Below, in pieces: positions 39,516-41,514 of a DNA stretch of 64,000 nucleotides (position 1 is the stretch's first letter; the number at the start of each line of letters is the position of its first letter). The stretch is from Methylophilaceae bacterium 11. GTDB lineage: Bacteria; Pseudomonadota; Gammaproteobacteria; Burkholderiales; Methylophilaceae. The translations under genes were made by a program, and so were the position numbers. The stretch is taken from positions 124,001 through 188,000 of the forward strand of contig JCKJ01000001.1 of the NCBI GenBank assembly GCA_000525025.1, in the 5' to 3' direction. Under the pieces are notes generated by a model, which had not been told where the DNA came from, did not search any database, and was given only the letters and a program-made list of their open reading frames with translations.

Positions 39516-39693
39516 TGCTACATTCCTTTTCAGCAGTAAAAGCACATGAATCTTAGCATTATTTTAAATAGGCTTGCCGAGATGCAGGTTTATTTAATGA
39601 ATTAATTTGAAATGGTTGCAAATTACGAACGATATGTGGACAATGGATAAGATTCTCGATATAACTCACTCATTTATAACGAATAAAAAATTA

Positions 39694-40923
39694 ATGGCGA
39701 CTTCTTTCAAGCTTATATTGCCCGACGATAGAATTGAGCGTCTACAGTACATTCGACGCATGTTTCCACAAGCCAAAGGTAGGAACCTGATTGATGCATG
39801 GCAAGGCGGTAGAAAGCAAGCTTTCGCGCGTCTACAAGCAGTAAATGCCAGTGCTTACGGGCGTAACCGCAATTTTATCAATGGTGCCGTCACCCGTTTA
39901 TCCCCTTATTTACGCCATGGCTGTTTGACGGTAAAAGAAACTGTGGACCATATTCAGCAGCACTTTGGTAAGCAGGGTGCCAAGCTGGTGGAGGAGTTGG
40001 CCTACCGGGATTTCTGGCGTCAAAACTGGTACCGACATGGCAATGCCATCATGAGCGATATGGAAGAGCCGAAAGTTGCGCTTGGAAATAATATGCTGCC
40101 CGCGTTTATTCCACAGGGGATCACCGGCTTGCCCTGTATGGATGAAGTGGTCCGTGAACTGCTCAACGAAGGCTATGTGCATAACCACGGGCGTATGTGG
40201 TTTGCCGCATATATTATTCACTGGTTAAAGGTAGATTGGCGTAGAGCTGCCGATTGGTTTGAAGCACAATTGCTGGATGGTGATAAGGCTTCGAATCACT
40301 TGTCTTGGCAATGGGTAGCCAGCACGTTTAGCTCAAAACCTTATTATTTTAATAAAGAAAACCTAGCGCGATTTACGGGTGAAAAATACTGCGCTACTTG
40401 CAAAATAGAGTGTCCATTTGATGATAGTTACGAAAATCTTCATCAAAGGATTTTTAGCGATGATGGGCCTATCGTCACCAAAACTTATCCGGTCAACATG
40501 CCAGAGAAGGCGCCTATTTCTAAACACTCCTCGGTGAGTGTGTATGTGCACGATGAAATGCTTTCGTCCACTAATCCGCTGACCAAATTGGCCATGCCTA
40601 AAGTCTTTGTTTTTGATGAGGCGCTGTATGACCATTGGCCCCTCAAGCGCATTCAATTTATGGCAGATTGCCTGAGTGAAATGCCCAATGTGGATGTTTG
40701 GCTGGGCGATACGCGCACGGTGCTGCAAGAGTTGGGCGTAGGGCAGGTGATTTCACAAAATACGCCCAACTTGCAGGTCAAAGCGTTATTGGCGCCGTTT
40801 AATCCTATCTGGCAAGAAGAGGAAAAGCTCACGCATGTAGAGCTCAGTTTAAAACGCCTAGCCAGATTTACCCGCTATTGGGAAAAAGTGCAGCCGGATA
40901 TCTTGGGCGAGCAAACTGCTTAA
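39694..40923 (+). CDS. Photolyase/cryptochrome-like FAD protein with permuted domain order
   Basis: With the ATG at 39694 (the open frame begins at 39607) the protein has 409 residues. Its first 230 or so residues contain the FAD-binding photolyase core: TRLSPYLRHGCLT, ELAYRDFWRQNWYRHG, VHNHGRMWFAAYIIHWLKVDWR and LSWQWVAST. The antenna-binding alpha/beta domain that normally precedes it is missing at the N-terminus. Instead the C-terminal 110 residues look like such a domain (KVFVFDEALYDHWPLKRIQFM, DVWLGDTRTVLQELGVGQVI). Three cysteines lie at about 233, 236 and 240 (CATCKIEC). DNA-repair activity is inferred from the FAD core. No strong ribosome-binding site fixes the start. Confidence 0.8.
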   Translation: MATSFKLILPDDRIERLQYIRRMFPQAKGRNLIDAWQGGRKQAFARLQAVNASAYGRNRNFINGAVTRLSPYLRHGCLTVKETVDHIQQHFGKQGAKLVEELAYRDFWRQNWYRHGNAIMSDMEEPKVALGNNMLPAFIPQGITGLPCMDEVVRELLNEGYVHNHGRMWFAAYIIHWLKVDWRRAADWFEAQLLDGDKASNHLSWQWVASTFSSKPYYFNKENLARFTGEKYCATCKIECPFDDSYENLHQRIFSDDGPIVTKTYPVNMPEKAPISKHSSVSVYVHDEMLSSTNPLTKLAMPKVFVFDEALYDHWPLKRIQFMADCLSEMPNVDVWLGDTRTVLQELGVGQVISQNTPNLQVKALLAPFNPIWQEEEKLTHVELSLKRLARFTRYWEKVQPDILGEQTA

Positions 40924-40947: not shown

Positions 40948-41514
40948 ATGCCGATTGTATTGCTGGTTATTGGTGTGATGGTGCTGCTGTATATTATTAC
41001 GGTGTACAACAGTTTGATTACCATTCGCCACAATGTGGAAAAAGCATGGTCGAATATTGATGTCCTATTAAAGCAGCGTAACGAAGAGCTGCCTAAGTTG
41101 ATTGATACCTGTAAAGCCTATATGGCGCATGAATCTCAAACGTTAGAAAAAGTGGTGCAAGCGCGTATGGGGGTGACTCAAGCGCTCAAGTCACATTCAG
41201 CAGCGCAGTTAAGTCAGGCAGAATCGTCTTTACTTTCTAGCATTGGTGGGCTTTATGCAGTGGCCGAAAACTATCCAGATTTAAAATCCAATCAAACATT
41301 TCTCAATCTACAACAGCGCATTACAGGTCTAGAAAATCAAATTGCAGACAGACGCGAGTTTTACAATGACTCTGTGAATGTCAATAACGTGCGTATCGCA
41401 CAGTTTCCAGATTTAATCGTGGCAAGATTGTTCAACTTCCAGCGTGCTGATTTATTGCAGTTTGCGGCAGATGAGCTGAAAGATGTCGATGTCAGTGCAC
41501 GTTTTAACGCCTAG
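40948..41514 (+). CDS. lemA: LemA-family protein
   Basis: The 188 residues begin with a membrane anchor (IVLLVIGVMVLLYIITVYNSL) and the LemA-type helical body: RHNVEKAWSNIDVLLKQRNEELPKL, then YPDLKSNQTFLNLQQRITGLE and RREFYNDSVNVNN. All are signature blocks of the family, which forms helical bundles at the membrane with an unknown role. A GGGG-containing leader (AAAGGGGATTCGGG) precedes the ATG. It is followed 18 bases later by a GIDE-domain gene, a pairing seen repeatedly in proteobacteria. Confidence 0.92.
   Translation: MPIVLLVIGVMVLLYIITVYNSLITIRHNVEKAWSNIDVLLKQRNEELPKLIDTCKAYMAHESQTLEKVVQARMGVTQALKSHSAAQLSQAESSLLSSIGGLYAVAENYPDLKSNQTFLNLQQRITGLENQIADRREFYNDSVNVNNVRIAQFPDLIVARLFNFQRADLLQFAADELKDVDVSARFNA

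Follow-up and report, generated by a model that had tools for sequence, protein, structure and literature searches.

A predicted photolyase with reversed domain order in Methylophilaceae bacterium 11 and the separately encoded halves of its relatives

Photolyases with a reversed domain order are already known from marine cyanobacteria, in which the two halves are mostly encoded by separate genes. Two adjacent genes of Synechococcus WH7803 were proposed in 2012 to form a heterodimeric photolyase, according to passages of PMC3441193. Excerpts of PMC9426592 describe the genes phr4/phr5 of marine Synechococcus and the fused gene phr6 of Cyanobium, use the term reverse domain order, predict (6-4) activity for Phr4/Phr5, report UV phenotypes and ascribe the same gene complement to Nostoc punctiforme; they leave open whether phr4 and phr5 yield one frameshifted protein or two. 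In E. coli, the Synechococcus pair gave no protection under UV-B, and protection under UV-C came without a significant difference between light and dark (same excerpts of PMC9426592). Also, passages of PMC13274461 report an inverted domain topology for NewPHL/SPL, and short photolyases (SPL) were proposed to be ancestral for want of an antenna domain, as stated in part of PMC9649867.

Here, we analysed a gene in a stretch of 64,000 nucleotides (the window; contig JCKJ01000001.1, positions 124,001 to 188,000) of Methylophilaceae bacterium 11, the genome of which is a single contig of 2.79 Mb. The product of the gene is probably a reverse-order photolyase in a single chain, belonging to the Phr4/Phr5/Phr6 (short photolyase-like) group; it is predicted to split dimers, most likely CPDs, and its halves would have been joined from two genes. 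It adds a fused reverse-order form from a proteobacterial family that is distant from the picocyanobacteria, where this order was described. Domain relations, domain order, pairing of the halves and conservation of catalytic and cluster residues were computed. Beyond the descriptions in the passages of PMC9426592 and PMC3441193, the results add members from Methylophilaceae, Planctomycetota and Deinococcus, a near-perfect pairing of the halves, unlinked pairs and a count of changes between fused and split forms. The literature found on reversed photolyases names, in the passages at hand, no Methylophilaceae, Planctomycetes or Deinococcus, and we do not claim an absence of reports from these groups. 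The features of the gene are the following:

39694..40923, + strand: reverse-order photolyase gene, 409 aa plus stop (ORF and translation, relatives)
39694..40458, + strand: FAD (catalytic) domain, about aa 1-255, with the FAD_binding_7 core at aa 100-220 (Pfam, PDB matches, model)
40135..40137, + strand: Cys148, predicted first [4Fe-4S] ligand (alignment columns)
40390..40413, + strand: Cys233, Cys236 and Cys240 (CATCKIEC), predicted remaining [4Fe-4S] ligands (alignment columns)
40531..40920, + strand: C-terminal photolyase-antenna-like alpha/beta domain, from its first strand (aa 280-284) to the end (profile comparison, model)
within the C-terminal domain, + strand: motifs and residues FVFD (aa 305-308), R319, F322, G338 and the closing RFTRYW (aa 391-396) (alignment)

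The ORF at 39694-40923 is a real gene, since a strong match was found in 26 of the 37 genomes of Methylophilaceae (own genome included; two of the 26 cut by contig ends) and since single fused frames, a few of them cut by contig ends, were present in 62 of 79 surveyed loci, these being the best 79 of at least 572 confirmed matches. Close relatives align from the ATG at 39694 and not from the TTG at 39607, which is the earliest start codon of the frame and an alternative start. The 29 codons between this codon and the ATG are too few to conceal an N-terminal antenna domain. Relatives of the gene were not found among viral contigs; a phage search yielded 10 records, none of which covered 80% of the query and all of which matched within aa 3-226, and PADLOC gave no match. 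On the same strand, 24 bases downstream, a LemA-like gene (named by eye) is located at 40948-41514, and the two genes possibly share a transcript.

In the whole protein, the sole Pfam match up to E 10 was FAD_binding_7 at aa 100-220 (E 3.4e-23). NCBIfam matches (DASH, class I and others) remained below their cut-offs, and the later parts of these profiles, like the later parts of PDB photolyases, align with the N-terminal half of the protein. The original prediction had placed the FAD core in this half and an alpha/beta domain last; all motifs that it named are contained in the translation, and both the position of the core and the reversed order were confirmed.

For the comparison of single residues, columns were taken from PDB and family alignments, and a core set of 123 family rows was used, from which two FeS-BCP rows, one canonical row and four Leptolyngbya-type split rows were left out. 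The small cysteine cluster CATCKIEC, which had been noted as a feature of the link between the domains, is present; it is no linker curiosity, since C233, C236 and C240 together with C148 fall in the columns that hold the [4Fe-4S] ligands in FeS-type photolyases. All four cysteines were found in 122 of the 123 family rows, the exception being a shortened frame, and in 122 of 127 if the four Leptolyngbya-type rows are added, which have none of the four and were set apart after this lack had been seen. None or one of the four occurs in four L027-type rows, the Persicobacter row and ten NewPHL rows; the 26 canonical rows lack Fe-S cysteines, and the two FeS-BCP rows carry cysteine in the same four columns as the window family. 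The full set is thus either retained or lost, as expected of a cluster site. The same assignment of cysteines was made for Phr4 in the relevant passage of PMC9426592.

Most active-site residues of the window family are, by alignment, of the CPD type, contrary to the published (6-4) prediction. In E. coli photolyase numbering (W277, E274, N341, R342, M345, W359, N378, W382, W384, W306), the equivalents of W359, N378, W382 and W384 are invariant in 123 of 123 family rows. The N341 equivalent is N in 119 and the M345 equivalent M in 113 of the 123 rows, in contrast to H and L, respectively, in the two FeS-BCP rows. At the W277 equivalent, W is present in 103 and Y in 18 of 123 rows, the window protein having Y, and at the E274 equivalent the same 123 rows show E in 102, Q in 17 and A in four. 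The R342 equivalent is His in 123 of 123 family rows and Arg in 26 of 26 canonical rows, and an equivalent of W306 was not seen on inspection by eye.

These residues bear on the question whether a reverse-order photolyase of this kind is (6-4)-specific, as was proposed for Phr4/Phr5 from the Fe-S cysteines. The four cysteines fit the columns of the two FeS-BCP rows, the R342 equivalent is not Arg, and the effects described in PMC9426592 were, in the part considered, obtained with UV-C rather than UV-B; the change from R342 to His and the lack of UV-B protection in that source slightly weaken the main reading, a reverse-order photolyase most likely acting on CPDs, and slightly strengthen the (6-4) alternative. 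Against (6-4) specificity stand the N341 and M345 columns, in which the family differs from FeS-BCP. CPD repair by an SPL with an Fe-S cluster, reportedly found by Xu in 2021, likewise argues against it. We regard (6-4) specificity as unlikely, and on balance CPD repair is expected over (6-4) repair.

A cryptochrome-type photoreceptor without repair activity was also considered. Repair activity has been lost in some members of the photolyase/cryptochrome superfamily. However, most repair residues are retained in the 123 family rows, photolyase genes adjoin in several relatives, and the Synechococcus pair has a UV phenotype (PMC9426592, in excerpt), so that a photoreceptor appears decidedly improbable. 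The gene probably encodes a light-driven DNA repair enzyme. As to the chemistry and substrate of the window protein, we infer that its N-terminal domain, for which FAD and a [4Fe-4S] cluster are the predicted cofactors, would use light-driven electron transfer from the reduced FAD to split pyrimidine dimers formed under UV, most likely CPDs.

The C-terminal segment had been proposed to resemble the missing antenna domain, and profile comparison bore this out. An alignment of 41 C-terminal domains, 28 from fused genes (window included) and 13 stand-alone, was used. Up to E 10, PF00875 (DNA_photolyase) was matched by 14 of the 41 domains, with a best value of 1.6e-4, and the next Pfam family by two of the 41; the window's own C-terminal domain gave no Pfam match in this range. 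Against 16 canonical antenna domains the C-terminal profile reached an hhalign probability of 96 (E 4e-9, 78 columns), whereas the controls USP, ETF and FAD domain gave 0.67, 0.39 and 1.8, respectively (all below 2%); the canonical antenna profile itself scored 8.6 against USP. In a PDB search with the C-terminal profile, photolyase/cryptochrome antenna domains made up 10 of the 11 sequences at E up to 5 (best E 0.026), and in four of 20 loci the profile matched the N-terminal part of canonical photolyases at E up to 1e-3. In a protein of Deinococcus sp. AJ005, FAD_binding_7 spans 102-218 and PF00875 comes after it, at 300-395 (E 7e-4); the PF00875 match has 20 bits and is below the curated cut-off of 26.6.

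Models of the domain were searched with Foldseek. The isolated C-terminal domain (pLDDT 89.6) found nothing at E up to 0.001; phosphopantetheine adenylyltransferase was first (E 0.094) and CryB twelfth (E 0.32, probability 0.84). By fold alone the domain would be called Rossmann-like, and by sequence profile a photolyase antenna. With the whole model, photolyases came first, led by PhrB (5lfa) with a TMq of 0.49, which no other TMq exceeded. The whole-chain values (pLDDT 94.9, pTM 0.93) suggest that the mutual placement of the domains is predicted with confidence. As judged from its profile, the C-terminal domain is related to the usual N-terminal antenna domain; it would be the equivalent of that domain and is predicted to pack against the catalytic one.

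The C-terminal domain may carry a light-harvesting chromophore, which in the window organism is probably not 8-HDF. Such binding is putative because the C-terminal domain alignment lacks the RRDLR motif that canonical antenna domains have. Also, no match to CofG near the cut-off was found in the own genome (20 bits versus 213), which makes 8-HDF unlikely; lumazine or folate is possible. In NewPHL, the C-terminal domain is a lid sealing the FAD site, and a purely structural lid over the FAD site, without chromophore, would be compatible with the reading as a reverse-order photolyase. The lost RRDLR motif, the lack of CofG above cut-off and the missing Pfam match of the window's own domain are consistent with such a lid. 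On the other side, the Phe and Asp of FVFD and the Arg and Phe of R..F are conserved and common to canonical antenna domains, and the profile matches antenna domains, not USP or ETF. We give the lid slightly less than even chances.

How widely the domain order occurs had been posed as a question for a family search. The order does recur, as the 62 fused loci of the best 79 of at least 572 matches show; it had already been described in PMC9426592, in the passages on phr4/phr5 and phr6. Within these best 79 of at least 572, the fused loci comprise 51 from Methylophilaceae or proteobacterial MAGs and 11 Planctomycetota records, and in 15 loci the two domains lie in adjacent genes, FAD then alpha/beta (Ferrovum, other Betaproteobacteria, Synechococcus, Leptolyngbya/Microcoleus and a cyanobacterial isolate). 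The remaining two are a contig end and a locus with the FAD gene alone, that of PCC 7702, which has an alpha/beta gene about 0.63 Mb away. Among plasmids, the alpha/beta query matched four records, all from Deinococcus; the FAD gene is present on each of them, fused in three and split in one. Among 299 Pseudomonadota genomes, the strong FAD-first type was present in two, the own genome (G000) and G571 (split), besides nine weaker matches, one of them a canonical photolyase and the other eight similar in size to NewPHL. In the planctomycete phylum it was present in one of 246 genomes, which is the query's centre genome itself.

A tree was calculated from FAD domains. Of 181 domains, one partial row was dropped, and thinning at 80% identity left 121 rows, which were reduced to 90 by random draw of Methylophilaceae and canonical rows. 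A further 12 rows were excluded, namely the long-branched Persicobacter row and 11 that represent a second photolyase in their locus, seven of these mislabelled as split, so that 78 were left. The outgroup consisted of eight canonical rows, each from a relative of the window's order. The window family and the Synechococcus split genes were set apart from the canonical rows by a branch with 100/96, and the ten NewPHL rows formed one clade (100/99), the position of which rests on long branches. Some inner branches of the 78-row tree are weak. On this tree the label fused or split needs four changes, and the starred branches force four for the fused label. The four fused groups are Methylophilaceae, Planctomycetota, Deinococcus and the L027 type, and outside Methylophilaceae the closest rows (Ferrovum, other Betaproteobacteria) have the two genes split. 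L027, L028, L029 and L256 represent a further FAD-first type, in which the C-terminal domain is divergent (FPWS..RW.FV motif) and the Fe-S cysteine set is missing; the L027-type C-terminal domain has an hhalign probability of 96.5 to that of the window family and of 1.9 to the canonical antenna.

The co-occurrence of the two halves was analysed in 244 cyanobacterial genomes, from the phylum of Synechococcus WH7803, with thresholds of E up to 1e-25 for the FAD gene and E up to 0.01 for the alpha/beta profile, the best candidates (at most 16) being scored per genome. The FAD gene was present in 48 of the 244 genomes, and alpha/beta matches in 58, of which 47 were strong and stand-alone (E below 1e-29) and 11 weak only. 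A strong stand-alone alpha/beta gene was found in 47 of the 48 genomes with the FAD gene versus none of the 196 others, counted over at most 16 best candidates per genome and with kinship ignored. The 20 weak alpha/beta rows had E values of 4e-5 to 0.008, and 19 of them belong to frames about as long as ordinary photolyases (477-596 aa). G093, the only genome with an FAD gene but no strong alpha/beta gene, has a fused gene with a C-terminal domain resembling those of L027-L029 (by eye and tree). In the 47 pairs, the genes are adjacent within 600 bases in 27, overlap in the search match in two more and lie within 2 kb in three. The other 15 pairs are unlinked, eight at 0.48-4.9 Mb along a contig and seven on different contigs, with at least 5 kb free beside one gene where an adjacent partner would sit. 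At least in these 15 pairs, the halves have to work as separate subunits.

The original prediction had considered a natural circular permutation, in which a canonical photolyase gene is duplicated and the outer halves are then lost. The same two domains in reversed order would result from it. This picture does not fit well, since close relatives have separate FAD and alpha/beta genes, some of them unlinked, and the tree shows fused forms in four separate positions; the split state of the nearest rows outside Methylophilaceae and the four fused/split changes also speak against a true permutation, which we consider highly improbable, although for the deep origin it is hard to distinguish from fusion by sequence. 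Separate and sometimes unlinked genes in relatives, together with fused forms in four tree places, point to gene fusion (or repeated fission). We infer fusion rather than fission as the direction, so that the reversed order would have arisen by the joining of two genes, which are separate subunits in cyanobacteria, Ferrovum and one Deinococcus.

A wider idea, for and against which we see equal chances, is that FAD-first photolyases with Fe-S cysteines are two-part by nature, the "short" ones using an antenna in trans from a freely movable partner gene and the single-chain forms being repeated later fusions. If true, this would undercut the idea that the family descends from antenna-less SPL, and programmed frameshifting would be unnecessary for the phr4/phr5 pair. 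The proposal of ancestral SPL, as worded in the passage of PMC9649867, needs review if the antenna domain is routinely encoded elsewhere. The unlinked pairs bear on the question of one frameshifted protein or two, raised in the cited part of PMC9426592, and indicate two polypeptides, at least there.

Neighbouring genes were inspected as well. A companion photolyase, with its domains in the canonical order, adjoins the FAD-first gene in several lineages, in frames of 342-580 aa that are in part truncated at the end of the locus (L006, L018, L024, L025, L034, L035, L039, L042, L044, L054, L073, L076, L084, L086, L106, L172, L218 and L223); L084, L086 and L106 also contain an FeS-BCP-like gene and thus are photolyase gene clusters. 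Among the ORFs of the window, no companion photolyase was found next to the gene, and the own genome held no closer match than a canonical photolyase of 500 aa. In L175, L183, L184 and L256, the start of the FAD-first gene is overlapped by an oxidoreductase gene of the NAD(P)-binding or FAD-dependent kind (in L256 named by eye), the product of which could be a source of reducing power for the photolyase.

Compared with known systems, the window protein is closest to Phr4/Phr5/Phr6 as described in the passages of PMC9426592, with which it shares an FAD domain with four cysteines, an alpha/beta partner and an identical order. Phr6 of Cyanobium is, by the same description, fused as is the window gene, and locus L092 comes from WH7803, the strain of the 2012 pair (PMC3441193, in part). 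In the tree, however, the window protein stands in a separate fused group (Methylophilaceae), and some cyanobacterial pairs are unlinked, which the passages of PMC9426592 and PMC3441193 do not mention. The class I CPD photolyase of the own genome (G000:C1:2308666, 500 aa) likewise has an FAD core and an antenna domain, but there the antenna is N-terminal, and canonical rows lack the Fe-S cysteines. With FeS-BCP and the PhrB (6-4) photolyase the window protein shares the four cysteine columns, and PhrB was the best whole-model match. It differs from FeS-BCP in having Asn and Met, the residues of its family, instead of His and Leu in the N341 and M345 columns, and a DPRP domain (PF04244), which comes first in FeS-BCP, is absent.

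NewPHL resembles the window protein in having the FAD domain first and a second domain last, and catalytic residues are conserved in the ten NewPHL rows, which were assigned by eye and domain order rather than against the published sequences (Emmerich 2020). In contrast to the window family, these rows lack the full Fe-S cysteine set and form their separate clade, and their C-terminal Z-domains (n=7) reached an hhalign probability of only 2.7 to the family's domain, so that any relation would be a very distant one. An origin of the Z-domain from the same antenna ancestor found no support in hhalign, with this value and 1.1 to the canonical antenna, although the alignments are colinear. Fe-S cysteines are present in some members of SPL, and the short FAD domain is a likeness to SPL drawn from descriptions of that group. 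Unlike SPL, which excerpts of PMC9649867 and PMC9178010 describe as lacking an alpha/beta domain, the photolyases analysed here have this domain fused, in an adjacent gene or in an unlinked one.
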